IMG/VR virus record: IMGVR_UViG_3300007735_000728 | Span: 1 to 41,020 of that record | Length of the DNA stretch: 41,020 nucleotides | Strand: one strand, 5' to 3' | DNA from: a virus | Part shown: positions 10,280-29,455 of the stretch, in pieces | Position numbering within the stretch: the first letter of the stretch is position 1 | How the letters are laid out: every line of letters starts with the position of its first letter | Program-made: the position numbers and the translations under genes | Notes under the pieces: generated by a model | Told to the model about the DNA's origin: nothing | The model's input: only the letters and a program-made list of their open reading frames with translations | Databases searched by the model: none

Positions 10280-11593
10280 ATGAGCCTTGAAGTTGCTGCA
10301 AAACACTTAGCCGCGCATGGTCGTCATGGCGACTCGACCCTTGTCCACATGAATCCAAAAGAAGTCGCAGGACTTCAAGCGTTGGCACAATCAAAAGGCA
10401 AGTCATTAAGTATTAACCCACACACTGGACTACCAGAAGCCTTTAACTTAGGCCAAGAATTGGGTAACGCCACAAGCGGTATTGGATCAACTGTTACTGG
10501 CGCTGCGCTAGCTATTGCTTTTCCTGAGTTGGCTGCTTGGCAAATTGCCGCAAGTGTTGCGGCTACAAACTATGCTGCTACCGGCGGAAAAGACCCCACA
10601 CGAAGTTTAATGGGTGGTGTAGGCGCTTACGGCGGTGCTAGTTTGGCGGGTAATGTGATGGATGCAGGTGCGGCGGCTACAGATACAACTGGAATATCTG
10701 GCGCAGTGGGAGGAGAAGCGGGGGCAGAAGCCGTTCGACAAGAAGCGCTAAACAACATTCCTTGGTATGAAAAGGCGGCGACCGGTGCACAAGCTATTTG
10801 GAATAGCCCTAACACAATTCAAGCACTAGGCGGCTATAAAGTTTTAGGCGCTGCAGCACTTCCCGGAATTATGGACGCGGCAAGACCAAAAGCTATGCCT
10901 ACAGCAGCGCAAAAACCGCAAATGATTCGCCCTTATAAGTTTGATTACAACCTTCAAAACCCCAATAACCCAATAAATACGGCGTATATACCGGGACAAG
11001 ACACAAGTGAGCGCAAATGGTTTGCGCCTACTATGGTTGCGCAGACTCCTTACCAAGCCGCAGACGGCGGAATCATTGCTTTGGCTGGCGGTGGTCCCGT
11101 AGAGTTAATGTCCAACCAAGCCGCAGTAGGTGCAAACACTATGTACCCGATGGCAAACATGACCACGTCCGCTTTTGGTACGCCCTACCAAACACCGCAA
11201 TCTACCAACATGATGGCAAACCTCGCCCCTTCTGGTGGCGGTACTGTAGGACAAATGTCTGGTGAACCTAATATGCAAGGTACTCGTTTAGCCGCAGGGG
11301 GCTTATCTGATTTAGGCGGTTACTCTGATGGCGGCAGATTACTAAGGGGGCCCGGTGATGGCGTTTCAGACTCAATCCCAGCGCAAATCGGAGACAAGCA
11401 GCCTGCTCGTCTTGCTGATGGTGAGTTTGTGGTACCTGCCCGTATTGTTTCTGAACTCGGTAATGGCTCTACTGATGCCGGTGCTAGACAGTTGTACAAG
11501 ATGATGGACAGAGTTCAACAAGCCCGTGGCAAAACCACAGGCAAAAGCAAAGTAGCAAAGAACACTAACGCGGTTAAGTATTTACCCGCATAA
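10280..11593 (+). CDS. Virion / ejection-type protein with GGI and GPGDG motifs
   Basis: 437 aa, SD GTGAGG before ATG. The N-terminus (residues 1-60) is polar; residues ~60-170 are Ala/Gly-rich hydrophobic helix (SGIGSTVTGAALAIAFPELA, AWQIAASVAATNYAATGG), a possible membrane-insertion region. The C-terminus has the motif GGRLLRGPGDGVSDSIPAQI followed by QPARLADGEFVVPARIVSEL and a basic end (TTGKSKVAKN). I recall this C-terminal block as recurrent in podovirus-like virion proteins of unknown role, but cannot name a family. It lies in the position where other podoviruses encode internal, ejected proteins. Function is inferred from position and composition. Confidence 0.6.
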   Translation: MSLEVAAKHLAAHGRHGDSTLVHMNPKEVAGLQALAQSKGKSLSINPHTGLPEAFNLGQELGNATSGIGSTVTGAALAIAFPELAAWQIAASVAATNYAATGGKDPTRSLMGGVGAYGGASLAGNVMDAGAAATDTTGISGAVGGEAGAEAVRQEALNNIPWYEKAATGAQAIWNSPNTIQALGGYKVLGAAALPGIMDAARPKAMPTAAQKPQMIRPYKFDYNLQNPNNPINTAYIPGQDTSERKWFAPTMVAQTPYQAADGGIIALAGGGPVELMSNQAAVGANTMYPMANMTTSAFGTPYQTPQSTNMMANLAPSGGGTVGQMSGEPNMQGTRLAAGGLSDLGGYSDGGRLLRGPGDGVSDSIPAQIGDKQPARLADGEFVVPARIVSELGNGSTDAGARQLYKMMDRVQQARGKTTGKSKVAKNTNAVKYLPA

Positions 11594-11602: not shown

Positions 11603-12571
11603 ATGGCAGATCCAACACAAGTCGTCACGCAACAAAATGCGATCTCTGCGTATGCCCAGCCATATGTAGAAAATTTGTTAGGCAAAGCCGAAGCATTAAC
11701 TGGCACGCCCTATCAGCCATACCCAGCACAGCGAACTGCAGACTTTACTGGCTTACAAAACCAAGCATTTACCGGTGCAAGTAACTTAGGGATAACCCCA
11801 CAAACTGGACAAGCTACGGGTCTAGCGGGTACTGCTGGTATTGGCGGTTTAGGCGTTGCAGGACAGGCTAACCCATACGGGTTCCAAAGCCAAGTCGGTG
11901 GGTATATGAACCCATATCTACAGTACGTGCTGGCTCCCCAGTTAGCAGAAGCTAACCGGATGTATGACATCGGGGGTACTCAACAGCAAGCTAATGCTAC
12001 AAAAGTAGGAGCATTTGGGGGTTCCCGCGAAGCAATTATGGCCGCTGAGAACGAGCGCAACCGTAACATGGGGCTACAGAGCATTATTGGGCAGGGCTAC
12101 AACAATGCGTTTGCCCAAGCCCAACAACAGTACAACCAGAATTTGCAAAACCAACTGGCTGGACTCAATACCGCTGGTCAAGCCGCTAGTACCTTGGGGC
12201 AGTTAGGGCAAAACCAGTATGCGCAACAAACAGGCAACATTAACTTGCAAAATGCGTTGGGCACTCAGCAGCAACAGCAACAACAAAACATTTTGAACCA
12301 GCAGTACCAAGATTTCTTGGCGCAAAAACAAGACCCTTTCAACAAACTGAGTTACATGCAAGGTATTTTGACTGGTTTGCCAATGACTAGCTCAATTCAA
12401 AACGTGTATTCAAACCCTAATCAACTAGCCCAAGTCGCTGGTTTGGGCTTAACTGCAGCCGCGCTTAACAATTCGTTTGGCAACCCGCTTAAAGCCTCTG
12501 CAAAAGGCGGCGCAATTAAAGAAAAACGTCCAGCAGGATTAGCTGAATTAGCCATCCATAAAATGGGGTAA
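11603..12571 (+). CDS. Gln/Ala-rich virion protein, probable DNA-ejection protein
   Basis: 322 aa, SD AAGGAAAAGAA. The middle has a motif GAFGGSREAIMAAENERNRN followed by a long Gln/Asn-rich helical stretch (about residues 165-250, including a run of seven glutamines). It ends in a small basic segment SAKGGAIKEKRPAGLAELA. Alpha-helical, Gln-rich, low-aromatic proteins placed before the internal muramidase fit DNA-ejection (pilot) proteins such as P22 gp7/gp20 or T7 gp14 in character, without sequence identity that I can claim. Spacing to neighbours is 8-9 bases. Confidence 0.55.
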   Translation: MADPTQVVTQQNAISAYAQPYVENLLGKAEALTGTPYQPYPAQRTADFTGLQNQAFTGASNLGITPQTGQATGLAGTAGIGGLGVAGQANPYGFQSQVGGYMNPYLQYVLAPQLAEANRMYDIGGTQQQANATKVGAFGGSREAIMAAENERNRNMGLQSIIGQGYNNAFAQAQQQYNQNLQNQLAGLNTAGQAASTLGQLGQNQYAQQTGNINLQNALGTQQQQQQQNILNQQYQDFLAQKQDPFNKLSYMQGILTGLPMTSSIQNVYSNPNQLAQVAGLGLTAAALNNSFGNPLKASAKGGAIKEKRPAGLAELAIHKMG

Positions 12572-12579
12572 GGGACAAC

Positions 12580-14514
12580 ATGTTTAACGTCAACCAAATT
12601 ACAAGCCAACTGGCAAAAATGCCAGACCCAATGTTGCAAAAGTATGCGGCGATGCACAAGAACGACCCCTACACGGTGTCGCTGGCTTTAGCCGAATCTA
12701 ATCGTCGCAAAGCAATGCGTGTTAGTGCACAAGCAAAATTGGCAGGTGTGCAACAGCCAACAGTTGTGGATCAGGATATTGCTGAGATGGCGGCAGTTGA
12801 CCCTATGGGTAATGTGACTGGAGCGTTGCCAGAGAACCTTGGTATTGGCAAATTGCCTGCGCCTAACATGGCACCAATAGGGAAAGCAGAAGGTGGCATC
12901 ATTGGATTTAAAGATCGCGGAATTGTAAGCAACGACCCTAATTGGGTGTTTACTAATGCGTTGCGTGGACTGTTTGAGCGTGAGGGTGGGGAAACTGTTG
13001 ACCAAGGCGGACGTACTAAATACGGTATCAGTTCTAGAGGGCACCCAAATGTTGACATCGATAAGTTAACGCTTAATGATGCCGCAAAAATTTACAAGCG
13101 CGACTACTGGGATGCGTATGGCTTAGATAAACTGGCTAAAAGAAACCCACAACTAGCCGCCGCTACGTTTGATACTTTTGTAAACCACCCACCGGCTTTT
13201 GCAAAAAGAGCGTTGGAAGAATCTGGTGGCGACGTAAACAAACTGTTAGATATTCGTCGTGGAGAATACGAGCGTTTAGCGAAAGCCGACCCAGACAAAC
13301 ACGCGGGTTCTTTAAGAGGTTGGAACAGCCGTCTTCAGCACGTAGCATCATCCGTTGCTACTTTGCCTACTGAGGGCAACCAAGACGTTGCGGTGCCAGA
13401 ACAAAATGTACAAGCGGCACCAACAACACAAACGACCCCTGTAACAAAAGAAAATGCAAGAGGGGTTGCAAGTATCCCAACGTCGGCAGCGGCGTTAGTA
13501 GCAAACGCCGGCATGGCAACGCCTGTCTATGAAGCATTTAAACCTACATTTAAACCGGGCACAACAGTAAAAGAAGCGCTTAGCCGAACAGGCCTTGCCG
13601 CAGCAGTGCCAACGGCTACTTATTTAGGCGGGGTAACGGCCTCCGACATGGCGCGTAACAATTTGCAACTTATGTCACCACAGCAACGCAAAGAGCTGTC
13701 TGACAATGCCATGCTGAGCGCTATGAGCGGAGACACAGGTCTTGCTGCAGCCATCATGAATGCTGGCGAATCTAAAGAACCCCCACCAAAAACTTCTTCT
13801 TACGGTAAACAAATGAGCGAAGTTGGCTCATTCCTTGGTGATGTTGCACTTGGCCGCAAAGGTCGTGGTGTTGGCGCGTTGTTAGGCAACGGTCCTAAAG
13901 AAGCGGAAGAGGGGGCACCACCTGTTTCAACAGACCGTATGTCTTCACAAGTTCCTGATGAACTTAAACGGATTGAAGCCGCCCAACGTAACGCGGCTGA
14001 AGACGTACAAGTGGCTCCGCCTGCAGCGCCTGCTTCAACAACAGAAGGCAAAACTACTGGTGGTGGCGGACTAGCCAGTTTGTTTAAAGATCCTGCTTTC
14101 TTTATGGCCATGCGTTTGCTGGCTAACAAAAATCCCAATTTGTTTGGTGCGGTTGGCGAAGCTGGTATTGGTACGGTTGGGGATGTGGCTGCAGCCGAAA
14201 AAGCGGCAAGCGAATCCGAGTACCGCAAAGCACTGGGTAAATACTACGGCGCTTATGGTGAAGCAATTGAGCGCGGAGCCAAAGAAAAGAACGAAGTGCA
14301 GTTGGCTGAAAAAGCTGCACAAGAGGCGCTTGATACTTGGGCTAAAAATAATAAAATGGCGTTGTTGCAATCTCCTGCTCTATACGACCAAATGCGCGAC
14401 AAGTATCGTAGAGAAGCGTATACTTCCTACGGTATAAAAATGCCTACAATGGCAGCAAGTTCTCCTGATACCACAGGAGGCGGGTTTAAACTTCTGGGAG
14501 TTCGTCCCGGTTAA
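12580..14514 (+). CDS. Virion protein with internal GH108 muramidase domain
   Basis: 644 aa. Residues ~125-255 are a GH108-type (TtsA-like) N-acetylmuramidase: catalytic Glu in EREGG (E135), then GGRTKYGISSRGHPNVDIDK, KIYKRDYWDAYGLDKL, AAATFDTFVNHPP and GGDVNKLLDIRRGEYERLAK, the usual order of the catalytic and peptidoglycan-binding parts. This family cuts murein at a preceding EGG motif. The ~120-residue N-terminal extension (with KAEGGIIGFKDRG at 102-113) and the ~390-residue C-terminal Ala/Pro-rich and helical part mark it as a virion-associated lysin that opens the wall during DNA entry, distinct from the endolysin at 6948-7424. It lies directly before the giant ejection-type gene. Confidence 0.75.
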   Translation: MFNVNQITSQLAKMPDPMLQKYAAMHKNDPYTVSLALAESNRRKAMRVSAQAKLAGVQQPTVVDQDIAEMAAVDPMGNVTGALPENLGIGKLPAPNMAPIGKAEGGIIGFKDRGIVSNDPNWVFTNALRGLFEREGGETVDQGGRTKYGISSRGHPNVDIDKLTLNDAAKIYKRDYWDAYGLDKLAKRNPQLAAATFDTFVNHPPAFAKRALEESGGDVNKLLDIRRGEYERLAKADPDKHAGSLRGWNSRLQHVASSVATLPTEGNQDVAVPEQNVQAAPTTQTTPVTKENARGVASIPTSAAALVANAGMATPVYEAFKPTFKPGTTVKEALSRTGLAAAVPTATYLGGVTASDMARNNLQLMSPQQRKELSDNAMLSAMSGDTGLAAAIMNAGESKEPPPKTSSYGKQMSEVGSFLGDVALGRKGRGVGALLGNGPKEAEEGAPPVSTDRMSSQVPDELKRIEAAQRNAAEDVQVAPPAAPASTTEGKTTGGGGLASLFKDPAFFMAMRLLANKNPNLFGAVGEAGIGTVGDVAAAEKAASESEYRKALGKYYGAYGEAIERGAKEKNEVQLAEKAAQEALDTWAKNNKMALLQSPALYDQMRDKYRREAYTSYGIKMPTMAASSPDTTGGGFKLLGVRPG

Positions 14515-14532
14515 AAATTAGGATGTGCAGCA

Positions 14533-17500
14533 ATGCCCATATATAGCGTTCAAGGCCCTGATGGCCGTGTGTATGACGTAGAAGGGCCTGCTGGCGCTTC
14601 TGAAGAACAAATTATTGCGTTTGTTCAACAGAACATAAACTCCTTACAACCAAAAGAAGACGGCATTCTTAGCAGCGTTGCACGCGGAACAGAGTCATCT
14701 CTGTCCCAAATGCGCACAGGCTTGGCATCACTCATGGGTGGTAACGAAGCCGCACTTGCTGGTCTTCAGCGTGGTGAAGCCATTCAAGGCAAATACCCCG
14801 GCCAGCGTGGGTTTGAAGAAGTTGAGAAAGCCTATAAAGAACGCGGCATCCTCCCTGCTATTGGCGAATATATCAGCCAAATTCCCAGTGCGTTAGCAGA
14901 ACAATCCCCACAAATTGCAGGATCTATTGGAGCTGCCCGTGTTGGCGGCGCTGCCGCTGGTCCTGCGGGGGCTATTGTTGGTGGTGTTACCCCATCTTAT
15001 TTGCAACAGTACGGCGGATTCTTAGAACGCCAAGCAGAAGAGCAACGCAAAGAAGGCAAACCTATAGATGTAAACCGTGGAACTGCCGCACTTGCCGCCA
15101 TTCCAGCCGCTGCGCTAGATGTTGCCGCCACTTTTATCCCTATGGGTCGGGCTATTGCCGGCAAAGTATTTGGCCCTAGCATTGAAAAACTTTTGGCTAA
15201 AGGCGCTGAACAAGGCGCAGAAAAGTTGGCGCAAGAAAGTTTTGCCAAGACTTTAAAACGCGGTACGGCTACAGGCTTTTTGGCTGAGGTACCAACGGAA
15301 GTTGCTCAAAATGTTATTGAACGGGCACAAGCAGGCTTAGACCTTACTTCAGAAGAAGCGTTGGCGGAATACGGCAGGACTGCATACGAGGTATCAAAAC
15401 TTGCACCTATTGGTACAGCCGGTCGGTTTGTAGACAAGTCTGTTGCCAAAGCCAATATTGCCCGCAAGACGGAAGAAGAGCGAGCCGCCGAACAACTTAA
15501 GACTTTGCAAGAAGAAGAGCGCTTACGTCAAGAGACAGAAGAGGCTGAAAAACGTAAGGCTGCGCTAGAAGAAGCACGCAAGACAGGCACGCCAGAACTG
15601 TTGGCGTTAATGGGAGATACCCTACAAGCGGGGGAATACTCACCACTTAAAACACCCCAACAGTTAGATGAAGAACGTCTTGCTAAACAAGATGAACTTA
15701 GACAAGAGCAACTGCGCTTAGAACAAGAGATGCGCGGATACAGCACCGCTATCCCTGCTTTACAAAAACAAATGGATGAGGCTGAGGCTAGGAACGACAT
15801 GGCCACCGTGTCGCGTTTGGCTTTGCAGTTGCAACAACTGGCTACGGCAGAAGAACAAGCCCGTGTTGCGTTAGGCGAAGCAAAGAAAGCCTTGCCAAAA
15901 GAAGTAAGTGCTGACTCACTATACGCACAAATGGCGGAGGCTAGAAGTACTGGGGACTACGCCAAAGTTAGCCAAATAGCCCAGCAACTTGATGCAATAA
16001 ACAAACAACGCGCCGCAGAAACACGCATGGTGCCTAGTGAAATTAGGCCGGGCGAGGTGCGGGCTATGCCAGAAGAGCAGATGGATATGTTTGCTCCGGG
16101 CTACGAAAAGCGCCAACTCCAGCAAGACATTGCCGAAATTGAAGAAGGGTTTGGTAAGTTTGAGACTGAGGCAGAACGCAAGAAACGGGAAGCCCAGACC
16201 CAACAGCAACAGGCTTTGTTTGCCCAAGGCCAAGAGTACGAACAACAATTAACTGAGCGTGAAGTCGGTAAACAGTTTGAGTTAACGCCAGAACAGTATG
16301 CGCAAGCCCTGCGCAAAGGTCAAGTTCCAGAACAAAGGCAAAAAGTTTTGTATCGTGATGTGCCCGTTGAAGGCACTACCGGCCCCACGCGCCGTGTGCC
16401 GTACATAGTGGACGCGCAAGGCAAAGCCAAAGATATTACGGATGCTGAAGCCGCACGGATAGAAAAAGAAACACTGGTTGGCGGCAAAACTTCTGTTCAA
16501 GAAGCCATTGATACTGGATTGATTACGGCAGAAGTGCGCCAAGCTCTGGGTCTTACTGGCTTTGGTAATGCCACACTAGACTTAAATAACCCAGAAACTG
16601 CTACGCAAGTTCGCAACAAATTGCGCGATGTGCTGGTAAAACACAAAGCCCAAGCACAAGAGGACTTTAAGTTTGTAAACGATCAGTTTACAGAAAACAA
16701 ACTATACGACATGGAAGGTCGGCTAACGCCTGCCGCCAAAGACATTATTCGCCGTGACGTACAAGCAGAAGAAGCACAACGCCTGTTAAACCACATTACA
16801 GAGTTGCAATCTAAGACTGGCGTTGGTGTGCGCGAAGAAAAAACAGCAGAAGAACTGACCAAGACGCTGCACCGCCCAGAAGTTGTTAGTACAAAACTGC
16901 CACCGTTAGAACAAATTAAAACTAAAGATGCAAACGACTTAGCCCAAGCGTTGGGTATTAGTGGTGCGGCGGACATTAAAACTGCGCCTACTGACAAAGT
17001 AAGCGCTATGCGCCACAAACTGGAAGCGCGTCGTCAAGCAGAAAAGAAAGAAGCAATATTCCAGCAATTACTGGGCTGGTTAGCACGGGCTAAAGCGTCA
17101 AACAAACCGGTGCTCGATACGCTAGACGCAAAACGCTTAGCCACTTTACGCCGCTTGTATGTGCAAGCTGCGCTGTCTGAGATAGCGCATGGTCGAGCCG
17201 CTGAACGTCAGCCCGGTCTAACGGCTACGGATGTATTACAAATAACGGATCAGTTGTCTAGACCTTTGATGGAGTTAAGCACGCGTTACTTGGCACGACC
17301 CAAGACTGTTGAAGTAACGGGCAAGGTGCAAGAGCCATTAATTAAGTCACAAAAAGAAGCGGAAGAAAAGCGTACAGAAACAGGCGAGCTGGTTTACGCC
17401 GGAGAAAAGTACGTTCGCACACCCGAAGAGCAAAAGAAACTAGACCGTGCTGTTGGCAAACTGAAGTCGTTGCAAGAAGAATTGCAACGCGTGCGCCAGC

Positions 17501-20500
17501 AGATGAAGAACTACCAGCAAAACTTTCTTGAGCCTGCGCGTCAGAAATGGCAAGCTATGCCAGACGGTAAACTTGGTACGCCAGAGCATGCAGCGCGTGA
17601 AGCAGAGCAACAAAAGTATCTTAAAGTCAAAGAAGGTTTTACCAAACTCAATGCACGCGACTCAGAAATATCGCAGCAGATTGCCCAGATGCTGTCTGAT
17701 TTGGGGCGCAAACACGCTACATACGGCACATTCCAAAAAGACATTCGTGCATTAGAACGCCGACCATTTGGCAGTTTGCCTCGTGCCTTGGAGTCAATCC
17801 AAGAACAATTAGACGCGGTAGTTGAAAAAGCAACCGAGCCAACCAAGCCTACCCGTGCGGCAGGTATTGGACCGATGGGTATTAAGCAACGCCTAATGGA
17901 CGCTGTTGTTGCTAAAGAAAAAGAATTGGAAAAACTCAAAGGCGTTCATGGCAAGAAAGCCGAACGCGAAAAGTTGGTAAACGAGATTGCCAAACTGCGT
18001 GACAACTACGACAAGTTTGTTAAATCTGAAGAAGCTAAGGTACAACCGCCAACTTTACCGCTTGACTTTAAAGAGCGCCGTGATGAGTTGGATGAATTAA
18101 AGGCTAAAGCCCAAGAAGCGTTTGTTGCTAAAGATTACGACACGGTTGCTAAGTCGCTACAACGCATGCACGAGTTAGGTCTTAGCGAAGATATGGCTAC
18201 TGAGTTAGGCACGGAGTTTGAAGACAACGACCGCGTGCTTAGTACCGCCATCAAAGATGCCAAGGCTGAACTGGAAGAAATTGCCACGGGAATAAAACCG
18301 GCAGAACAAAAAGAGGTACGTCTTGGCGAGCGTGTTCCGCCACGCAGACCGCTTAACGAAGGTCAACTACGCCGTGTCAGAGAGTTAAACAAACTGCTTG
18401 ATAGTTTGGAGAGTGCCTACGTCAAGAACAAAAAAGCACTGCAAGACATTGGACTGTTCTCTACAGGCAAGACCGAAGACTTGTTTACCCAAGACATGTT
18501 TGGTGAAGCGCCAGAAAAAGGCGTGGTGTTTGAGTCTGCTGAGAAGTTTTTAGGCTCTAGCAAATACGGCAAGATTGCCAAGTTGCGCAAAGCCGCCAAG
18601 GATACCGTTGCTACGTTGCCTGTTACGCAGGCAGAGTTGTACCAAGTACGTACAGACTATGTTACTGCCACAACCGTACTGGGTAACCTACGTAAGATGG
18701 GCAAGTCTTTGCCCACAACGGCACAGTACTACAACGAGATGTCTGGCGAGTATTTACGCAAGGCGGATTTAATACATCAAAAGTATTTGCTGGCGCTTAG
18801 ACAAGGGGCACAGGCTGTTGGTATTCGCACAGGCCCTACAACGGTTTTAGAAATAACACCGGCGTACATAAAAGCAAACCCACTTACAGCCGAAGAAGAA
18901 AAACGCTTGCTTGAAAGCGTTAAGGCTAATCGTGCCGCAAACGCAACTCTTACGCTTTACAGAGACGAAGAAAAAAGACTACGTTCTTTAGCCGAAGAAT
19001 TTGAAGCGCGATCAAAAAGCTTTTTGCTTACTGTTAGTGATGCTCAACTTGATTTGGTTAGTGAATTGGCACAGGCTGCAGAAGCCCTGCCCGAGACAGC
19101 CGACGCATTACTGGTTGCACAAAAAGCTGTGGACGATGCCAAACGCGTCATGGATGCTACCGACGAGCGTGTTCGTAAGAACGGGTTGGTAAAACCAGAA
19201 GTTGTCTTTACGGCTCCAACCGAAGAACAGCCAACTTTAAACAAAACACAAAAAGATATTGGTGTTTTAAACACACAGATTAAAGCGCTTGGTAAACGCA
19301 TGAAGGGTGAAGCCCCTGACCAACGTGCCCTTAGCGCGTTTGAACTTCAAAACCTGATAAGTCTGCGCTCTGATTTAGAGACCATGCAGTATTTGCAAAC
19401 GGCAGAAGGCCGGTTGCAGCGCATGACTGAAAGCTTTATGGAGGAGTTTAATACTGATATAGACCCTGCTGTGCCATTAAGAACCGCGTTTGGTAGAGCG
19501 CTGGCGCGTGCGCAGGAGATTAAAGATGCTGTGATGAAGCAGCATACAGAGGAAGTAGAAGCACTTCGTAACGAGCGCGGTACTGTGGTTGATGCTTTGG
19601 CAAAGTTGGCCAGAGCCGAGCCGCCCACAAACAAACAAGCGTTCATTGACTTTAACCAAGACATTTATGAGTTGCGCGAGCGCATCCAGACCATAGACAA
19701 AACCATAAAGACAATGGACGCCAACCTGACAGCGGCGTTAGAAGTCGATGTGCAAATGTTGGTACGCGCAGATAGCGCGTTAAAAGATGCTTGGGCAAAA
19801 GTTAAAGCGGCTGAACAAGCCTTACGTGCAGAAGACACTAAGAAACGCACAGAGATTGCTAAGCGCAAGGCGGCATTGGTGCAGGCACAAGCGGTTGTTG
19901 ATGCAGCAAACGCCAAGATTCGTAAATCTAATGTAGGACTGCAAGCGTTCTTTGAGGCTAAGCAACCTTTGGTTTCCCCTGCGCTGAAGACTGCGTTGGA
20001 TAACGGCCTTGGATTGCCCGGCACAATAGTTAAGCGTGTTAAGGCGTTGAGCGCTGAAGGCGCAAAGGCTGCAGAGATTACAGGTACGTTTGGCGAACAA
20101 CGCCAAGTACAAACCATGAACGCTGGCTGGACTGTGCGTTACACAGCCGAAGGCCCCGTGTTTGACTACGACCCTGCTAAAGACCCAGATGCTAACGACG
20201 ACGATAAGAAGCGCAAAGGTTTGGACGCGTCTAAAGCATACGACCAGTTGAAGAAAGCCCGTAGTGCGTTGGCTCGTGCCGAAAGACAAGGCACAGACAA
20301 GCAAATTGAGTTAGCGACCGCTAACTTAGAACGCAAACAAAAACTCATGGAAGACTTGGCAGGTGCACGTTATGTGACTGTCGTGGAAGAAATGGGCGCA
20401 GAGCCTATTGAACTTGACGCAACCGTGGCAGTTCAAGAAGCCGTCATGGGGTTGAGTAAGAAAGACCAGAACGCTTACTTTAAAGCGCGTGGTGACCAAG

Positions 20501-23500
20501 AACGCTTGCGCAAAGAGATTGAGCATGCCCGCACACTTGTGGGGCAAACAGATCTTAGTACTGCACGCAAGTCATTGCGTAATGCTCAAGATCAACTTGA
20601 CTCTGCTAAAACACAGTTACGTTTATTAAACGAGGCGTGGGATCGCGGTACTAGCCGTATGACCGAGGGTGGCTACAACCGCCGTAAGACAGAACTTACA
20701 AACGCCGTAGCGCAATTAGAAGGCGTGGTAACGACTCGTCAAGAGAAGTTGCGCCCAATGGATGCCAAGAACGAAGAGCGCATCAATACGCTTACCCAGC
20801 AATATTTTGCTGCCAAGAAAGCAGCAGACGCGTTTATTGTTCCTAAAGCACCAGAGGCAACTAAAGCCCAGCGTGTGTCTGTTGCAGAGAATACGGCAGA
20901 CATGGCCAAGACCATGCGCACGCTGCAACGTCAAGAGAAAAACACAGACGTTAAACCGCTTATTAAACGTAACGACTCCTTAAAATCTGCAACTTCAGCC
21001 GAAGTCAAAATTAGACGCCAAGCCATACAGTTGGCTAAGACCGACAGGTTGGCAAAAATGTACCCCGAAGGTAGCGCAGAACGCAAAAAGGTTTTGCGTG
21101 AACTTGTCGATACGTACATTGATAAATTGACTAACGCTGGTAGTGAAAACGATAGCGGCACCGTGTTGCGCTATGAGGGTGCTGTGCCTACTAACCCAGT
21201 TGATGCAGACCAAGCCAAGAAAATGGCAGACGAGTTTGCTAAGAAGTTGCCTAAAGATGTTAAGTTTGTTTACGCACCGACACTGAACGAAGCGCCTGTT
21301 AAGTTCTTACGCGCCTTGGCTATGGATGGTGTGGACATTGAAGCTAGTGCCGTCAAGGGGGGTGTGCTGCCAGACGGAACGGTAGTGGTGGTGGGCAACA
21401 TGCACGACTCACTACTTGATCTTGAGAAAACAATACTGCACGAAACGATTGGTCACTACGGTGTTGACATAGTGCTTGGCCCCCAAGGTATGGCTGACTT
21501 GACTAAAGCCATCCGCACTTCTGAAGGCGGTATATACGGCATGGCTAAAGCATTGGGCGTTGAGTCTGATGTAGCCAAGACAGCTCAAGCATGGGAGAAC
21601 CGAGCACTGGCTGCAGAAGCCAAAGGTGATACCGAAGAGGCGCAGAAGTTACGCCGTACTGGTGAAGTGCAGGCTGTACGCGAGATGTTGGCTACTTTGC
21701 AAGAGCGAACTGTGGACGAGTCTTTTGTTGAAAAGATGGGGCGTTACATCAAGGTTGTCCTTGGCGCTATCCGTAGCGCACTAAAGAGCATGGGACTGAT
21801 GAACGCTGCCAACGTGTCTACAAACGATTTGTACTACACACTGTTCCAAGCCACACGCAAGATGCAGCAAGAGTTGGCGGGTACTTACGTGTCCCCAACC
21901 GGCATGCTGGCTATGAAGAGTGAAGCAGTTCGTTACGCCAACGGGCTTTTAGCCGAGGCAGGTCGCACCGCCGACGCTTCGATTGCAACAGACAAAAACT
22001 GGTACGACAGCGTTAGGGCAAACGGCACAGGCGTAGCGTTTGAAACTCAGTTGGTTGATAGGTTTGCAGGCTTTGAGCGTCTATCCAAAACAATGGACCC
22101 GCTTAAAGGCAGCCAGATGATGTACTACTTGCGTATGTACGACCAGCGCATGAACTTTACGGCTCAGTCTGTTGGCAACGGCGCTATTGAATTGCAAGAC
22201 ATTGTTCGCAAAGACGGCAGAACAGAACACATTTTTGCCAGCAAAGCGGGTCCAAGCATTAAGAGCGTGGTCAACATTTTGAAAGATGCGCCAGCCGGCA
22301 GTCCAGAAGCCGCCCAGCGTTTGTTTACGCTATACATGTCGGCTATCCGTGCCAAGGACAAAGGGCTTGATGCGCTTAACTTTGGTGGCAAAGTAACACA
22401 AGCACAGCTTGACCAAGCCATGCGTGCGATTGAAGCAACGCCCGGTTTGAAAGATAACTTTGACCGTGCCCGCAAAGAGTACAACGCATACAACAGAAAC
22501 TTGATTAAGTTGCTGGAGCGAACAGGTGTTATTACTAAAGAAGTAGCGGCTGACCTTGTTAAGAACGACGACTACATTCCTTGGTATCGTGAGCGCAACG
22601 GCGTTGCTGAGCTAATCATTGGAAAAGAAACGCCTATCCGTATTGGAAGCATTGCCGAACAGCCATACTTGCATCAGTTAATTGGTGGCGATAGACCGAT
22701 CCTAGACTTTTTAACAAGCTCTGTGCAAAACACAAACATGATTGTGGACATGGCGTTACGCAATATGGCAACCAAAAACGCAGTGTTTGAGTTAGAAAGT
22801 ATTGATTTGGCTAAGTTTGTTGGTAGAACTGACGGCCCCAACATTGTTAAGTTTAAGGTCGATGGTGTTGATAAATACGCCATGATCCAAGGCACACGCG
22901 AAATTCCGGGCGATTTGCTTGTTAAGGGCATGGAAGGTATTCCGACCCAAATGCCAGTCATATTCCGTGCGCTGGGTGTACCGGCTAGGTTGTTACGAAA
23001 AGCTGTGACAGCAACCCCTCTTTATGCGGCTAAGCAATTGTTCCGTGATTCTGTTGCTGCTCCTATCTTGGCTGGCGCAGACTTTACGCCTGTCATGGGC
23101 GCAATTAGAGAAATTGGTAGCCCAACCAAAAGCGTTTTGGAGTCCCGTGGTATTACTGGCGGTCAAATTTTTACGGGCACAACCGAAGATTTGACCATGA
23201 TTTTGAAGCGCATGTCTGAAAACAGGCCGGGCTGGTTAAACAGTCTGTCTAAGTGGGAAGCCATGACGATGGAGGCAGATGCGACAACCCGCCGCGCTCA
23301 GTACAACAGCTACATCAAGCAAGGTTTGTCTGAGATGGAAGCTACGCTGATGACGTTGGAATCCATGAACTTTAACAAGCGTGGTGCGTCCCCCAGTATC
23401 CACATTATTTCGTCGCTGATTCCGTTCTTTAACGCACAGATTCAGTCACTCAATGTTTTGTACAAAGCATTGTTTGGCAAGATGCCTTTTAATGAACGTT

Positions 23501-24462
23501 TAAAAATCCAAGAAAAATTGCTGACCCGAGGCATGATGTTGGCGGCGGGTACGCTGGCTTACACCGCCATGATGCAAGACGACGAAGCCTACAAGAACGC
23601 TACACCTGACCAGAAATACGGCAACTGGTTTATCCGTGTGCCGGGTGTTGATGAGCCTGTGCGGTTGCCGGTTCCATTTGAAATTGGCTATATCTTTAAG
23701 GCGCTGCCAGAAGCGTTGTATAACTCGATGGTTGATAAACACGGCGGCGAAGACGCAGTAAAAGCGTTTGAACAAATCCTGTTGCAGACTATTCCGGGCG
23801 GTACATCCTACGGAATTCCACAGGCTCTCAAGCCATATGTCGAAGCCAAACTGGGCAAGTCGTTCTACACAGGCCGCGACATTTTGTCGGCACAAGAAAA
23901 GAGCCTGCTCCCAGAACAGCAATTCCGTGAGAACACATCAGAGATTGCTAAGTCTTTAGGCAAAGCAGGCGGCGTGTCGCCCATCATGATCGAGCACTTG
24001 GTGCAAGGCTACACAGGCGGTATTGGCTTGGCTTTGATGCAAGCGCTTAGTGTGGGATATAGCCCTACAGGCACACCAGAAAAAGCGTACAAGCGCCTAT
24101 CTGAAATGCCTTTGGTTGGTGGTGCGTTCCAGCCTAATGACGCTGGTGCAATCATTACTAATATGTATGACCGTATGTTAGAAGTCCAAAAAGTGCAGAA
24201 CACTGTGGACGACATGTTGTTGAAAGGCCAACGGGCAGAGGCTATGGCACTCTTACAGAAGCGTGGCAATGAGTACATGGCATCCGAAATGGCTGACTAC
24301 TACACTTCGACAATACGAGAACTAACTCAATACGAGACAGCCATCCGCGCATCTAACTTGTCACCCACCGAAAAGCGCCAGCAACTCGACAAGGTTCGTC
24401 AAACCAAGATTAAGTTTGCTTCTGGGATGCGTGAGGTGGCCGATAGAACCATACCCCAATAA
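14533..24462 (+). CDS. Giant polyvalent / ejection protein with zincin-like and LPD38-like domains
   Basis: 3309 aa, about a quarter of the window. Residues 1-31 (IYSVQGPDGRVYDVEGPAG) resemble heads of phage polyvalent proteins. Residues ~129-152 and 182-210 are Gly/Ala-rich hydrophobic segments suited to membrane insertion. Residues ~310-2200 are almost continuous charged helix and coiled coil. Around residue 2239 an alpha/beta domain starts and carries HETIGHYG (H2303, E2304, H2308), an HExxGH zincin-like motif, with Glu residues at GEVQAVREML ~70 residues later as possible third ligand. The last ~800 residues (from YDSVRANGTGVAFETQL) resemble large polyvalent protein domain LPD38, with hydrophobic stretches such as LTRGMMLAAGTLAYTAMM. 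Such proteins are packaged and injected with DNA; T7 gp16 is a functional analogue. The role of the protease-like part is unknown. Confidence 0.75.
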   Translation: MPIYSVQGPDGRVYDVEGPAGASEEQIIAFVQQNINSLQPKEDGILSSVARGTESSLSQMRTGLASLMGGNEAALAGLQRGEAIQGKYPGQRGFEEVEKAYKERGILPAIGEYISQIPSALAEQSPQIAGSIGAARVGGAAAGPAGAIVGGVTPSYLQQYGGFLERQAEEQRKEGKPIDVNRGTAALAAIPAAALDVAATFIPMGRAIAGKVFGPSIEKLLAKGAEQGAEKLAQESFAKTLKRGTATGFLAEVPTEVAQNVIERAQAGLDLTSEEALAEYGRTAYEVSKLAPIGTAGRFVDKSVAKANIARKTEEERAAEQLKTLQEEERLRQETEEAEKRKAALEEARKTGTPELLALMGDTLQAGEYSPLKTPQQLDEERLAKQDELRQEQLRLEQEMRGYSTAIPALQKQMDEAEARNDMATVSRLALQLQQLATAEEQARVALGEAKKALPKEVSADSLYAQMAEARSTGDYAKVSQIAQQLDAINKQRAAETRMVPSEIRPGEVRAMPEEQMDMFAPGYEKRQLQQDIAEIEEGFGKFETEAERKKREAQTQQQQALFAQGQEYEQQLTEREVGKQFELTPEQYAQALRKGQVPEQRQKVLYRDVPVEGTTGPTRRVPYIVDAQGKAKDITDAEAARIEKETLVGGKTSVQEAIDTGLITAEVRQALGLTGFGNATLDLNNPETATQVRNKLRDVLVKHKAQAQEDFKFVNDQFTENKLYDMEGRLTPAAKDIIRRDVQAEEAQRLLNHITELQSKTGVGVREEKTAEELTKTLHRPEVVSTKLPPLEQIKTKDANDLAQALGISGAADIKTAPTDKVSAMRHKLEARRQAEKKEAIFQQLLGWLARAKASNKPVLDTLDAKRLATLRRLYVQAALSEIAHGRAAERQPGLTATDVLQITDQLSRPLMELSTRYLARPKTVEVTGKVQEPLIKSQKEAEEKRTETGELVYAGEKYVRTPEEQKKLDRAVGKLKSLQEELQRVRQQMKNYQQNFLEPARQKWQAMPDGKLGTPEHAAREAEQQKYLKVKEGFTKLNARDSEISQQIAQMLSDLGRKHATYGTFQKDIRALERRPFGSLPRALESIQEQLDAVVEKATEPTKPTRAAGIGPMGIKQRLMDAVVAKEKELEKLKGVHGKKAEREKLVNEIAKLRDNYDKFVKSEEAKVQPPTLPLDFKERRDELDELKAKAQEAFVAKDYDTVAKSLQRMHELGLSEDMATELGTEFEDNDRVLSTAIKDAKAELEEIATGIKPAEQKEVRLGERVPPRRPLNEGQLRRVRELNKLLDSLESAYVKNKKALQDIGLFSTGKTEDLFTQDMFGEAPEKGVVFESAEKFLGSSKYGKIAKLRKAAKDTVATLPVTQAELYQVRTDYVTATTVLGNLRKMGKSLPTTAQYYNEMSGEYLRKADLIHQKYLLALRQGAQAVGIRTGPTTVLEITPAYIKANPLTAEEEKRLLESVKANRAANATLTLYRDEEKRLRSLAEEFEARSKSFLLTVSDAQLDLVSELAQAAEALPETADALLVAQKAVDDAKRVMDATDERVRKNGLVKPEVVFTAPTEEQPTLNKTQKDIGVLNTQIKALGKRMKGEAPDQRALSAFELQNLISLRSDLETMQYLQTAEGRLQRMTESFMEEFNTDIDPAVPLRTAFGRALARAQEIKDAVMKQHTEEVEALRNERGTVVDALAKLARAEPPTNKQAFIDFNQDIYELRERIQTIDKTIKTMDANLTAALEVDVQMLVRADSALKDAWAKVKAAEQALRAEDTKKRTEIAKRKAALVQAQAVVDAANAKIRKSNVGLQAFFEAKQPLVSPALKTALDNGLGLPGTIVKRVKALSAEGAKAAEITGTFGEQRQVQTMNAGWTVRYTAEGPVFDYDPAKDPDANDDDKKRKGLDASKAYDQLKKARSALARAERQGTDKQIELATANLERKQKLMEDLAGARYVTVVEEMGAEPIELDATVAVQEAVMGLSKKDQNAYFKARGDQERLRKEIEHARTLVGQTDLSTARKSLRNAQDQLDSAKTQLRLLNEAWDRGTSRMTEGGYNRRKTELTNAVAQLEGVVTTRQEKLRPMDAKNEERINTLTQQYFAAKKAADAFIVPKAPEATKAQRVSVAENTADMAKTMRTLQRQEKNTDVKPLIKRNDSLKSATSAEVKIRRQAIQLAKTDRLAKMYPEGSAERKKVLRELVDTYIDKLTNAGSENDSGTVLRYEGAVPTNPVDADQAKKMADEFAKKLPKDVKFVYAPTLNEAPVKFLRALAMDGVDIEASAVKGGVLPDGTVVVVGNMHDSLLDLEKTILHETIGHYGVDIVLGPQGMADLTKAIRTSEGGIYGMAKALGVESDVAKTAQAWENRALAAEAKGDTEEAQKLRRTGEVQAVREMLATLQERTVDESFVEKMGRYIKVVLGAIRSALKSMGLMNAANVSTNDLYYTLFQATRKMQQELAGTYVSPTGMLAMKSEAVRYANGLLAEAGRTADASIATDKNWYDSVRANGTGVAFETQLVDRFAGFERLSKTMDPLKGSQMMYYLRMYDQRMNFTAQSVGNGAIELQDIVRKDGRTEHIFASKAGPSIKSVVNILKDAPAGSPEAAQRLFTLYMSAIRAKDKGLDALNFGGKVTQAQLDQAMRAIEATPGLKDNFDRARKEYNAYNRNLIKLLERTGVITKEVAADLVKNDDYIPWYRERNGVAELIIGKETPIRIGSIAEQPYLHQLIGGDRPILDFLTSSVQNTNMIVDMALRNMATKNAVFELESIDLAKFVGRTDGPNIVKFKVDGVDKYAMIQGTREIPGDLLVKGMEGIPTQMPVIFRALGVPARLLRKAVTATPLYAAKQLFRDSVAAPILAGADFTPVMGAIREIGSPTKSVLESRGITGGQIFTGTTEDLTMILKRMSENRPGWLNSLSKWEAMTMEADATTRRAQYNSYIKQGLSEMEATLMTLESMNFNKRGASPSIHIISSLIPFFNAQIQSLNVLYKALFGKMPFNERLKIQEKLLTRGMMLAAGTLAYTAMMQDDEAYKNATPDQKYGNWFIRVPGVDEPVRLPVPFEIGYIFKALPEALYNSMVDKHGGEDAVKAFEQILLQTIPGGTSYGIPQALKPYVEAKLGKSFYTGRDILSAQEKSLLPEQQFRENTSEIAKSLGKAGGVSPIMIEHLVQGYTGGIGLALMQALSVGYSPTGTPEKAYKRLSEMPLVGGAFQPNDAGAIITNMYDRMLEVQKVQNTVDDMLLKGQRAEAMALLQKRGNEYMASEMADYYTSTIRELTQYETAIRASNLSPTEKRQQLDKVRQTKIKFASGMREVADRTIPQ

Positions 24463-24622
24463 GGTCGTTGCGAACTGCTGGGTAGGCTTTGGCATCGAGG
24501 ATACGCAGGCGTACTGCCTGCTTTAATCCTTCTTCACGCACGCCGTCCGTATCAAGGCAGGGGATAAAGAACCCCTGCCCCCTCTCAAGCTGACTCCACG
24601 GATAGTGTATTTTTAGCTTCAT
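24410..24622 (-). CDS. Conserved-looking small protein, antisense to the 3' end of the giant gene
   Basis: 70 aa, ATG at 24622 lying 38 bases inside the end of the primase-helicase gene. The sequence (MKLKIHYPWSQLERGQGFF, then CLDTDGVREEGLKQAVRLRI and AVRNDLIGVWFYRPP) has a normal amphipathic and aromatic pattern and reads as a compact alpha/beta domain. I recall small phage proteins with 'YPW-LxxGQGFFVP' openings but cannot give a function. It covers the otherwise empty junction between the two gene arms, and its last 53 bases are antisense to the 3' end of the giant gene. SD is weak, consistent with coupling to the primase gene. Confidence 0.65.
   Translation of the reverse strand: MKLKIHYPWSQLERGQGFFIPCLDTDGVREEGLKQAVRLRILDAKAYPAVRNDLIGVWFYRPPHASQKQT
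24505..24524 (+). terminator. Possible weak terminator of the late operon
   Basis: Perfect 6-bp GC-rich inverted repeat GCAGGC-GTACT-GCCTGC followed by TTTAAT, 43 bases after the stop of the giant gene. Geometry fits a weak rho-independent terminator on the + strand, but the site lies inside the antisense small CDS, and the T-run is short. Confidence 0.3.
24556..24579. repeat. Perfect 8-bp inverted repeat at the convergent junction
   Basis: GGCAGGGG (24556-24563) and CCCCTGCC (24572-24579) are separated by 8 bases. It is a strong hairpin on either strand with no T-tract on either side. It lies in the coding sequence of the 70-aa - strand gene (codons for GQGFF), so it may be a coding coincidence or a transcription roadblock between converging operons. 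Confidence 0.4.
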
Positions 24623-27482
24623 CGTCCATATCAGAAATGCGACGGCTTATCTTGAGAACTCCCACGCGCATCTGGGGTCCCTGCGTCTTAGCCGTCATGT
24701 CCTTCTTAGCCATATGCGACACGGTAAACTGCGCTGCCAACTGACGCTTAAAGTCGGCATACCCAAAACTCATTGATGAGCAGTAGGCTTTAAGCAGTTG
24801 TTCCTCAATATAGAAGTCTACGTGGTCTGGCGTGAATCCGTGCTCTACGCGTCCCATAATTTCTGAACGTGTTGTAGCTTTGTCAACTTCTCCACCCCCA
24901 CCCAGTTCTGCCAAGATGCCTGACTCCATGTTGCGGATGACAATAAAGTGCCCGTAGTTCTCGCGCACATATGAGTTGAGCACATCTTCTGCGTTGCGGG
25001 CGTTGGATTTAATGTTGCCCCGCATCGAGGACACAACTTTCTTCAAGCACGCAATCACTGGCTTAACTGGGATGTTCACAATGCCAGCGTCCCCCATAAT
25101 GATCGCCGCTGTGACGATGGTGCCGATGCCCGCCATCCAGAAACGCTCGTCGTTGGTAGCCCCGAACTCCTTGTACATCTGTGTGACTGACTCAGGTACT
25201 AGCGTATGCAGACGATCTAGGTTGTCCACCATGTACTGCGACAGCATGTGTCCTGCTACTGCGTAGTTGTTGTGCAAAGACTTGATGATCTCAATCTCGT
25301 ATGGCTCCCAAGTTAACTCTTGGGTCAAAATAAATTCCAGCAAACGGCGCAACTCGCCTTCAGACGAGTGCTTGCGTCCACCAGTCAAGCCGTCTACCAC
25401 GTGGGTATTGGATGACATGATCGCGTTGGTCATCCATGTGGATAGGTTGATACGCTCCTTGTTAGCGCCTGACTCCATACGCTCCTTGCCCCGACCCTCT
25501 GTCATATCCAGTAGGAACTCAGGCAACCATTCAAAGTTAGCGCGGTTCTTGCTGGTCAACTCGTCCGTTATCAGGGGCATACTGCACAGCAATCCAAGGC
25601 GCTGTTGCATGGCCACGGGCGAAGTGCTCTTGCCCGTTCTGTAGTGGACTGGGTGACCCCAGATAGAAGCGGCAGCCTCAAGCGCCAACGACTTGCCTGT
25701 GCCTGACTCGGTTGAACCGCAGTGGTATGTAATGCCGTAGATACCTGTGAAGCGCATCAACGGGGCGCTGGCTCCAGCCAACAAAATCGTCAGGTGATCC
25801 CACATCCCCTTCTTGACCAGCATCTGCACAAATGAGCGCCATGCCTCAATCGTTCCTGTGGGTTTGGTGTTGGATACGATGTTCTCCAAGCCGGGCATAG
25901 GCACGGATACTGGGGGTAAACCCTTAGAGAAAATCTTGCCAGCAAACACGAACGTATCGTTCTCTTGCCAGCCGTAGTTAGTGGGTACTCTCACGGGAGC
26001 CTTTCCTGTGCTTGCCTGTTCGACACAAGCCCGCACATAATCAAATAAGTTTTTGTCATTGCCCGCACCATACGAAGCAATAATGTTTTGAAGCGCAAGC
26101 GCTTTGACGGTTTCGTCTTTACTGACTACCGCCTTCTGTGACATGGTGACTGTCTCCACCCCATCAGGGCGTAGGCTCAGCATATGCACCGTGTGCTCCC
26201 CGTTGTGCCGCAAGATGTCCACCACAAATAACTCGTGGGGCAAGATCATGATCTGGCGCTTGGTCTTGTTGCCTTCGGCATCCACATCTTCTTTCTCCAT
26301 AAATACCCCACCCCGTGCACCATAGGCATAGCCTTTGGGAGGGGTGGGGCGAAGGACTTTACGAACTTCCTCGTTTATGGATGGGCTGTCCGTGGTTACA
26401 TGGACTTCGATCTCTTTAACCGATGTGTCTAGCATCAGTTCTCGTCCAAGCGCTAGTGGGTTGGTTATCTTGCCAAAGTGTTGACACCCGTCACATACGC
26501 CCGGGTTCTCGCTATCGAACTTGATACAGGGATAGGGTCCCTTAATCTCTGCCAGCTTCTGGTGCATGCGCTCTTCGGTGTAGGGGTGCAACTCGGTCAA
26601 CCATATGGCGGCCTTCGGTGCGTCCTGACACTTCTGTGCAATGCTCAACCACCCACGCCACAACGGCTCCATGCCCTCGTCACTAGCGTTCTCTGCGTAG
26701 TAGCGTAACTGTGCACATCCCGTGCCGTCCTTGGTGCGCTTCAAGATTTTGGCGAACTTAGTCGTGCTGTTCTCGAACAGCGTCACGGCAGTCGTTGATG
26801 GTTGTACAACTGGGGCGTTGGTTGGGCGTTTGCCCGGAATGGCTGACGCTGTCGGTGCTGGTGCAATACTCTTTAACTGGCTCACTACGTGAGCTTTCAA
26901 ACTCTCAAAGTTAAATATGTCACCCTCTGCCAGCAGTCTGACTGGGCGTGGGGTTTCGTACTTCTTCTTAAAGTTGGTCGTCTCGGGTATGCGTAACACG
27001 CGGGCGGCGTCAGCCGTCACGGTCATGTCGATGCTTAGCTTTTGTTGCTTGCACAGGCGTTTAAAGTTCTCGGCAAGGGGCTTCCACTCCTCAATCTCGA
27101 CGGCTTCTTCAAACGGCCAGTAGCAATGCAGTCCACCACCAGAGCCGACAATCCACGGGCTACCAAGTATGTCCAACCCAGTTTCGGCAAGGAACGCTTT
27201 GAGCGCGTATGCTGCTTGCTTCTTGGTGGCGTAGCCGTCCATGTCAATGAACAGCGCCTTGATAAAGCGGGCGTTCTCGGCCTTGCGTTTATTGTTCTCA
27301 TCAAAGGTAGCCAGCGCAAAGAAGACATCGCATTCGTTGGCAACCCAAGTGTCCACCTTGGGGTAGAAATCGTCCAAGTGCTCGACGAATAGGTGCTCTT
27401 TTTTCTTAGTTAACTCTGCCGCGCAGTAACTTCCGTGACCCGCAGACGGCAAAACAACCGCAAGGAATTCAAGCGGATTCAT
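24585..27482 (-). CDS. Primase-helicase (AEP primase + SF3/DUF927-like helicase)
   Basis: 965 aa, ATG preceded by AAGGACTTAA. The N-terminal ~250 residues are an archaeo-eukaryotic primase (prim-pol) domain: metal-binding D80 and D82 in LFIDMDG, then H119 in GSGGGLHCYW, and DMTVTADAARVLRIP. A Cys-rich patch PGVCDGCQHFG lies near residue 350. The C-terminal half is an AAA+ helicase resembling DUF927 with Walker A GSTESGTGKS at about residue 590 and Walker B-like PLITDEL about 50 residues later. It would prime and unwind at the phage fork together with the family A polymerase encoded 5 kb upstream. The 3' end overlaps the small gene at 24410-24622. Confidence 0.85.
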   Translation of the reverse strand: MNPLEFLAVVLPSAGHGSYCAAELTKKKEHLFVEHLDDFYPKVDTWVANECDVFFALATFDENNKRKAENARFIKALFIDMDGYATKKQAAYALKAFLAETGLDILGSPWIVGSGGGLHCYWPFEEAVEIEEWKPLAENFKRLCKQQKLSIDMTVTADAARVLRIPETTNFKKKYETPRPVRLLAEGDIFNFESLKAHVVSQLKSIAPAPTASAIPGKRPTNAPVVQPSTTAVTLFENSTTKFAKILKRTKDGTGCAQLRYYAENASDEGMEPLWRGWLSIAQKCQDAPKAAIWLTELHPYTEERMHQKLAEIKGPYPCIKFDSENPGVCDGCQHFGKITNPLALGRELMLDTSVKEIEVHVTTDSPSINEEVRKVLRPTPPKGYAYGARGGVFMEKEDVDAEGNKTKRQIMILPHELFVVDILRHNGEHTVHMLSLRPDGVETVTMSQKAVVSKDETVKALALQNIIASYGAGNDKNLFDYVRACVEQASTGKAPVRVPTNYGWQENDTFVFAGKIFSKGLPPVSVPMPGLENIVSNTKPTGTIEAWRSFVQMLVKKGMWDHLTILLAGASAPLMRFTGIYGITYHCGSTESGTGKSLALEAAASIWGHPVHYRTGKSTSPVAMQQRLGLLCSMPLITDELTSKNRANFEWLPEFLLDMTEGRGKERMESGANKERINLSTWMTNAIMSSNTHVVDGLTGGRKHSSEGELRRLLEFILTQELTWEPYEIEIIKSLHNNYAVAGHMLSQYMVDNLDRLHTLVPESVTQMYKEFGATNDERFWMAGIGTIVTAAIIMGDAGIVNIPVKPVIACLKKVVSSMRGNIKSNARNAEDVLNSYVRENYGHFIVIRNMESGILAELGGGGEVDKATTRSEIMGRVEHGFTPDHVDFYIEEQLLKAYCSSMSFGYADFKRQLAAQFTVSHMAKKDMTAKTQGPQMRVGVLKISRRISDMDDEAKNTLSVESA

Positions 27483-27499
27483 TTAAGTCCTTGGGTTGA

Positions 27500-27682
27500 T
27501 TACAGGAAGAGGTCTTTTTGCGCGGGGTCTTTTGGTGGGAACTCGTCCAACGGTGCAAGCGCCGTGAAGCGCCTAAGCAGTTCGTGTTGGAACGCAGTGG
27601 GCAAATCTTCTCTGTCAAGAATTAACGCACATTGGTTGATGAGTTCGCTGTTGGTCAAGTTTCTAGGTTGAAAACTTTGCAT
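27500..27682 (-). CDS. Unrecognised small protein between HTH and primase genes
   Basis: 60 aa starting at ATG 27682 (MQSFQPRNLTNSELINQCAL), which has GGAGAG four bases upstream; an in-frame TTG at 27694 would add four residues but destroys this SD spacing. The product is mostly helical, with a leucine-rich core (HELLRRFTALAPLDE) and a polar, acidic-basic end (PKDPAQKDLFL). It overlaps the 3' end of the HTH gene by 28 bases and is followed after 17 bases by the primase gene. No function recognised. Confidence 0.6.
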   Translation of the reverse strand: MQSFQPRNLTNSELINQCALILDREDLPTAFQHELLRRFTALAPLDEFPPKDPAQKDLFL

Positions 27683-27933
27683 GTTTCTCTCCAAGCCTCG
27701 TCGGCTGATTTTGATTTTTGTAATATTTCGAGCAGGACTTCTGCGCGGTACACGTAGGCGGGGAAGATGTCCTTACCCAAGAACCAGTTGTACACAGTTT
27801 GGCGCGTGACACCCAAGGCTTTGGATATACGCACGACCGAGAAGTCATGGTGAATCGCCCAACGCCCAAGCTGGGTTCCCAGCGACTTGGGCGTCTTCGC
27901 AATTTCGTCAATGATTTTTTGTGAATATGGCAT
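27655..27933 (-). CDS. Cro/XRE-like helix-turn-helix regulator
   Basis: 92 aa. Residues 31-52 (FSVVRISKALGVTRQTVYNW) form a clear helix-turn-helix: the ISKALGVTRQTVYNWFLG pattern is that of Cro/XRE DNA-binding domains (A-x-x-x-G turn, recognition helix TRQTVYNW). The rest is helical (AEVLLEILQKSKSADEAWRE). The length suits a single-domain dimeric repressor or activator. No good SD precedes ATG 27933, so expression may be low or depend on read-through. It is the only obvious sequence-specific regulator in the window and a candidate for binding the dyads at 29406 and 39120. Confidence 0.8.
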   Translation of the reverse strand: MPYSQKIIDEIAKTPKSLGTQLGRWAIHHDFSVVRISKALGVTRQTVYNWFLGKDIFPAYVYRAEVLLEILQKSKSADEAWRETCKVFNLET

Positions 27934-27958
27934 GTTGTGAGGTGGGGGTACTCGCTAC

Positions 27959-27979: not shown

Positions 27980-28018
27980 TCTAGACCTGTCAGCATCCGC
28001 TTTCCCCCCGAATCCTTT

Positions 28019-28969: not shown

Positions 28970-28977
28970 TTAGTTTC

Positions 28978-29448: not shown

Positions 29449-29455
29449 ACTCCTT

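Follow-up and report, generated by a model that had tools for sequence, protein, structure and literature searches.

A 3309-residue polyvalent phage protein with a predicted HEXXXH-type zincin domain

The giant gene and its late-block setting

The window analysed here is a 41,020-nt IMG/VR virus record (IMGVR_UViG_3300007735_000728), whose left edge falls within a portal gene (the PHROG match sets in at position 317 of 714). On the + strand the gene order runs from portal through tail-fibre genes, endolysin, virion proteins, a DNA ejection homologue and a GH108 lysozyme to a giant protein, past which genes for DNA replication and recombination lie on the - strand. The giant gene (14533..24462, + strand) closes this late block and is open from its ATG at 14533 to its stop at 24462, with no internal stops, which gives the 3309 residues reported in an earlier note. 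Directly upstream (12580..14514, +) is a candidate virion peptidoglycan hydrolase with a Glyco_hydro_108 domain at residues 131-203 (Pfam 1.6e-14), whose product also matches the endolysin family phrog_315 (4.5e-29). A distinct endolysin gene is located within the virion gene block (6948-7424). The hydrolase domain may reside in different ejection proteins across phages (PMC8954989), and here it occupies a separate gene. This is preceded by a DNA ejection protein homologue (11603..12571, +; phrog_4287, 2.5e-10) and by a late-block protein (10280..11593, +) with no PHROG or significant Pfam match, which by its position only is a possible third ejection protein. The genes at 11603-24462 look like a podoviral ejection cassette closing a late block, and a giant protein carrying LPD38 is likewise the last late-block gene of Vibrio phage K249 and Burkholderia phage BcepIL02. 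In purified virions of podovirus JC1, gp69, which carries LPD38 at residues 4195-4401, gave the second-best score by mass spectrometry, with 51 unique peptides (PMC9144972). The position of the giant gene in the late operon by ejection genes, coupled with this JC1 precedent, makes entry into the virion very probable, and by the same analogy the protease-like domain is likely injected with the DNA, as the earlier note had supposed.

The giant protein begins with a short N-terminal tag and a Gly/Ala-rich head, described below, which are followed by a long, charged, helical middle (residues 307-2217; 15451..21183, +). In this middle (about 310-2217) E, K, R and Q are abundant and P and G scarce, and hydrophobic residues recur with a period of 3.3-3.6 residues (z about 4.6-4.8 against shuffles). 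Composition and periodicity together support long amphipathic helices, and it is to this extent that a previously proposed coiled coil of ~1900 residues is borne out. Neither Pfam nor further searches recognised a domain in the middle, and no relatives of it were found in the annotated phage collection. The C-terminal part comprises a zincin-like metallopeptidase domain predicted by a family profile and AlphaFold models (residues 2218-2450; 21184..21882, +), a conserved linker with tblastn matches in many phages, which fills the zincin-LPD38 interval (residues 2451-3016; 21883..23580, +), and LPD38 itself (PF18857, residues 3017-3195; 23581..24117, +). The last of these scores 114.6 bits against a cut-off of 27 (E=8e-33), in agreement with the LPD38-like C-terminus noted before. 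LPD38 is restricted to phage-type polyvalent proteins (PMC5512222). The features of such proteins, namely an LPD domain, at least two domains in one polypeptide (here zincin and LPD38) and a location among late virion genes, are all present, so that the designation as polyvalent stands. Pfam searches of the giant protein recognised no enzymatic domain besides the zincin.

A zincin-like domain with an HExxGH motif

The motif HETIGHYG lies exactly where the earlier note had placed it, at residues 2303-2310 (21439..21462, +), and is the sole HE(x)2-3H sequence in the whole giant protein. No Pfam, NCBIfam or PHROGs model reaches threshold for residues 2218-2450. A family HMM was made here from relatives found by motif and whole-domain searches, rather than from the published alignments of Iyer et al., and when built with the window left out (47 relatives) it matches the domain at E=7.4e-19 and 63.8 bits. 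Relatives found by the motif pattern share the motif by necessity, thus the informative evidence lies in the downstream Glu, the HMM and the wider conservation. The same HMM also picks proteins outside the motif-search selection (Comamonas and Endozoicomonas plasmid records, Aeromonas phiARM81mr and Vibrio K249), with the motifs HEMLGH, HELVGH, HEVLAH and HEILAH, all of which keep HE(x)3H and the Glu; both features are also retained by the whole-domain tblastn relatives, which were not motif-selected. Model phrog_14770, of unknown function, matches 38 of the 48 aligned domain relatives, whereas the giant protein's own domain stays below its threshold. Residues 2218-2450 almost certainly belong to the polyvalent-protein zincin-like family. 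A search against zincin and LPD profiles, proposed earlier as a check, thus gave a positive answer for LPD38 and for the family HMM made here, and a negative one for the zincin with Pfam, NCBIfam and PHROGs models.

Within this domain, H2303 and H2308 are the predicted ligands of the motif, E2304 the predicted general base and E2384, in the pair R2383-E2384 (21679..21684, +), the predicted third ligand. The 133 distinct family matches include 131 that span the motif, every one with both His and the motif Glu, and 127 that reach position 2384, every one with Glu there. The Glu aligned with E2384, 81 residues past H2303, is invariant in 83/83 first-round relatives as well, and the DNA search pattern used for these did not contain it. 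The HExxGH motif is therefore part of a zincin-like domain whose downstream Glu is conserved as well; the predicted active site has a metal ion bound by H2303, H2308 and E2384, with E2304 as the residue that activates water. The invariance of E2304, together with a dN/dS of 0.066 within the domain against a near-identical phage (L001), favours catalytic activity, and the domain is more likely than not an active enzyme.

Two further positions, 2312 (four after H2308) and 2383 (one before the third ligand), vary together. The pair is R/E in 108 matches, D/R in five and E/R in one; all six matches with an acidic residue at 2312 and a covered 2383 carry R2383, which is found nowhere else. In the giant protein D2312 (21466-21468) and R2383 (21679-21681), both adjoining predicted ligands, invert the charges of the R/E pair usual in the family. 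As the six charge-swapped proteins form one clade (support 0.83), the swap was probably one event. The covariation lends the predicted geometry independent support and fits a salt bridge, with R2383 partnering D2312, that would tie together the two ligand-bearing helices and has been inverted in the giant protein's clade, which deviates at three otherwise conserved positions (L2311V, R2312D and E2383R).

AlphaFold models reached a mean pLDDT of 84.8 for the giant protein's domain and 90.7 for a relative with a shorter insert (L090). In the former, the secondary structure (H11-24, E31-34, H42-50, E62-64, E70-73 and H80-115) provides an N-terminal helix and three strands ahead of the motif helix, and E2384 falls in a predicted helix after it; in the latter, three strands accompany an HExxGH helix at 82-97 and a Glu helix at 136-153. 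A viral structure library returned polyvalent proteins of large size (best match at E 9.5e-11 with a query TM of 0.82). Foldseek searches of the PDB with the two models gave no significant match (best E 0.32 and 0.86), and a PDB profile search returned designed helical proteins only, at E 0.026 and above. The best result of a single-domain PDB sequence search, 3e11, is a zincin-like protease aligned over the motif at a non-significant E of 0.69. The structure prediction proposed earlier thus yielded the motif helix and the later Glu helix, and no significant match to a solved structure; with none matched, assignment of the zincin fold is drawn from motif, topology, profile comparison and published analysis.

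HEXXXH-form metallopeptidases of polyvalent proteins have been described by Iyer et al. (2017), who sorted metallopeptidases into 12 clades and reported zincins to be more frequent in polyvalent proteins than any other domain (PMC5512222). In common with that set, the family has an HE(x)3H helix, three preceding strands, a Glu in a later helix and an occurrence in huge LPD-bearing phage proteins. The giant protein's clade differs in the residues directly behind the motif (V-D, where L-R is usual) and ahead of the third ligand (R in place of E), and in a longer stretch between motif and Glu. BcepIL02 gp70, a relative of JC1 gp69 from a Burkholderia phage, has HEAFHQGG in the aligned region and AEEF downstream (domain E=5e-6); this occurrence of a classical HExxH in the same region marks the extra residue as an insertion within one zincin family. 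A profile-profile comparison with the C1 domain of the N4 virion RNA polymerase (HELVH ... NEFMAW) gave a probability of 83% (single-comparison E=8.9e-6) and was colinear over 163 columns, with strand, motif, Glu and last helix all in order. It was weaker (50%) with a second alignment of the zincin family, and an unrelated-alignment control gave 1.4%. A direct HMM match of the zincin domain to N4 gp50 was not significant, and it is only in the profile-profile comparison that the link finds support. The HExxGH form is best read as an insertion variant within a known zincin lineage.

At the level of the whole protein, N4 gp50 (NTD, RNAP, C1 zincin, C2) is similar in its length of ~3,500 residues and in a zincin near the C-terminus that is followed by a large helical region, and it offers for comparison a protein that is ejected and has a lipid-binding N-terminal part. 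In contrast to N4 gp50, no RNA polymerase was recognised in the giant protein, the motif is HExxGH with E rather than HExxH with NE, and LPD38 is present, a profile with no match in N4 gp50. The giants of Bcep22-like podoviruses, JC1 gp69 and BcepIL02 gp70, share LPD38 near the C-terminus and the last position in the late block; JC1 gp69 is virion-associated and BcepIL02 has a zincin-like domain ahead of LPD38. They differ in that JC1 gp69 has additional transglycosylase and methylase-helicase domains and BcepIL02 an HExxH, whereas here the lysozyme is encoded upstream by a gene of its own and the giant protein yielded no methylase match. Of the 77 zincin ORFs that end in a real stop, 31 contain LPD38, and spacings between zincin and LPD38 in relatives are about 555-1260 residues; further upstream, relatives carry LPD5, LPD1, ddrB-ParB or methylase domains. 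Cultured phages that carry the same unit include Achromobacter phage CF418P1, Vibrio phage K249 and Aeromonas phage phiARM81mr. The giant protein with its zincin domain is a fresh instance of an already described protein type. One polyvalent ORF (L003, 4427-13936) contains both a classical HEWWH (residue 1713) and an HETIGHYG domain (residue 1960). Two records filed as non-mobilizable plasmids (L137 and L138) carry a phage-type LPD38 giant and may be phage-plasmids.

Divergent heads and N-terminal tags

The first 36 residues of the giant protein (14533..14640, +) constitute a sequence motif, MPxYxVxGPDGxxYxVxGPxGAsxEQ (also written MPxYxIxGPDGxxYxIxGPxGATxEQ), that is common to the starts of other proteins and is here called tag A. 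It is followed by the head (residues 37-306; 14641..15450, +), which is Gly/Ala-rich as the earlier note had stated; the accompanying description as membrane-active is only weakly borne out, by a single 19-residue window (residues 183-201) that peaks at a Kyte-Doolittle value of 1.49. The near-identical phage L001, whose DNA is 94.5% identical over 15281-31795, encodes the same giant protein with 96-98% identity beyond the head, about 54% identity in the first ~305 residues and an unrelated sequence in the first ~36. That two phages so nearly identical share a giant yet differ in its head and carry unrelated N-terminal tags is new here. At the DNA level, similarity drops abruptly at 14442-15281 (L001 3377-4209), a stretch that includes the 3' end of the lysozyme gene as well as the giant's tag and head; a second stretch that diverges from L001 lies inside the lysozyme gene (13367-14054).

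In other podoviruses, a lytic transglycosylase and a DNA injection protein likewise begin with tag A, and its motif starts 120 viral-contig ORFs, although the search pattern included the start codon and the N-terminal position is hence partly by construction. The tag of L001, tag B (IaEIRqKYPQYxDLSDxqLADaLHxKFYSDMPfxdF), is found at the start of large proteins in 37-kb phages of Vibrio, Shewanella, Thalassomonas and others; it was searched for without a start codon, and a Met stands 0-8 residues ahead of it in 94 of 95 viral-contig ORFs. Complete ORFs with either tag extend for 432 to 3310 residues from the tag onward. In a set of 60 tagged ORFs, PHROG matches carry labels such as DNA ejection, DNA transfer or head morphogenesis protein. 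Compared by hhalign, the two tags are dissimilar (probability 3%), and two unrelated protein groups contain both under strict clustering (35% identity over 150 residues), the count relied on here; permissive clustering gives five. A literature search found no prior description of the tags, an absence that is no proof of novelty. An LPD38 giant from an Endozoicomonas plasmid record (L137, 7477-7560) starts with a repeated sequence, FTIPDDWGQ ... FNIPDEWGE, perhaps a third type of tag. As a tentative proposal, short, mutually unrelated and interchangeable N-terminal tags might direct packaging or ordered ejection, with giants swapping tag and head whilst keeping the protease and LPD38 end.

Possible roles of the giant protein

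The reading preferred here, to which a probability of about 60% is given, is that of a packaged and ejected polyvalent protein whose active zincin processes either itself or co-packaged partners. From gene context and analogy, we infer that the product of 14533-24462 is packaged and injected. Within a podoviral ejection cassette made up of ejection protein, lysozyme and giant protein, it would be the largest component. Packaging, passage out through the tail and envelope contact are the probable functions of its tag and amphipathic Gly/Ala-rich head; the helical middle may be a spacer or conduit element, and the C-terminal unit would consist of zincin, helical linker and LPD38. In the HEXXXH-type zincin, H2303, H2308 and E2384 would hold the metal and E2304 would activate water; the most likely task of the domain is a limited cut in the giant protein or in a co-packaged partner, during assembly or just after injection.

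Iyer et al. put forward self- or partner processing as a general role for the metallopeptidases of polyvalent proteins, and cleavage of P1 DdrB before packaging provides a precedent (PMC5512222). With no enzymatic domain recognised besides the zincin, it is not obvious what cargo cleavage would set free. The N4 virion RNA polymerase is packaged unprocessed with its HExxH intact (PMC5512222) and no degradation of the recombinant protein was observed (PMC12633501), which argues against obligatory self-cleavage. That the substrate is the giant protein itself or its partners is held with less than even confidence. No demonstrated activity of any polyvalent-protein zincin is reported in the literature examined.

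The same N4 observations lend themselves to the main alternative, in which zincin, linker and LPD38 form an encapsidation or regulatory module like C1-C2 of N4, with a structural metal and no cleavage. N4 gp50 is ejected, with an N-terminal part able to enter lipid nanodiscs; the C-terminal region is needed for encapsidation (PMC5512222) and inhibits the polymerase, the protein staying undegraded (PMC12633501). The profile link between the N4 and family zincin domains extends this analogy to the giant protein, and the fixed order of the unit, with the zincin upstream of LPD38 in 32/32 ORFs that carry both, is in keeping with such a module. However, a purely structural site has no need of a general base, and this Glu is the residue found invariant in 131/131 matches; the alternative is considered possible, though rather unlikely. 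Less likely still, the injected domain would act as a protease on a host protein of defence, transcription or the envelope soon after entry, a role already proposed as an alternative for such domains (PMC5512222) and compatible with the location of LPD38 giants in virions and with the lack of another enzymatic domain in this one. No evidence points to any host target, and the domain spans very different phages and hosts, for which a phage-internal role fits better.

Kinship with dipeptidyl peptidase III (M49), suggested in the earlier note, is very improbable. HETIGH does have the HExxGH form and thus the motif length of M49, and the motif together with the downstream Glu pair of most relatives resembles M49, at the motif level only. 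A sequence-profile match is missing: Peptidase_M49 (PF03571) has no match at E<=10 in the 41,020-nt stretch, whilst a Bacteroides control was found, and M49 homology is rejected at this sensitivity. No M49 chain occurs among the results of the PDB profile or fold searches, and the domain clearly belongs to a separate polyvalent-protein family, in which HEXXXH was already described (PMC5512222), such that the analogy is unneeded. Finally, that HETIGHYG is a chance motif in a helical structural protein, as the length and mostly helical nature of the protein and the want of a covering Pfam model might suggest, is ruled out with near certainty by the family profile (E=7e-19) and by an expectation from composition of about 0.0007 HExxGH, the third ligand moreover being invariant though outside the search pattern.

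Few parts of the virion are as poorly understood as its giant ejected proteins. The protein described here, read as a packaged polyvalent protein with a zincin that processes itself or its partners, presents a simple case in that the zincin is its sole recognised enzyme, so that one active-site mutant could tell whether the domain cleaves anything. The exchange of head and tag between near-identical phages is in turn a natural experiment on the function of the N-terminus of ejection proteins. If the proposal for the tags is true, a short sequence sufficient for loading into the phage head would be a general tool, and it would in part account for the mosaic way in which ejection proteins evolve.
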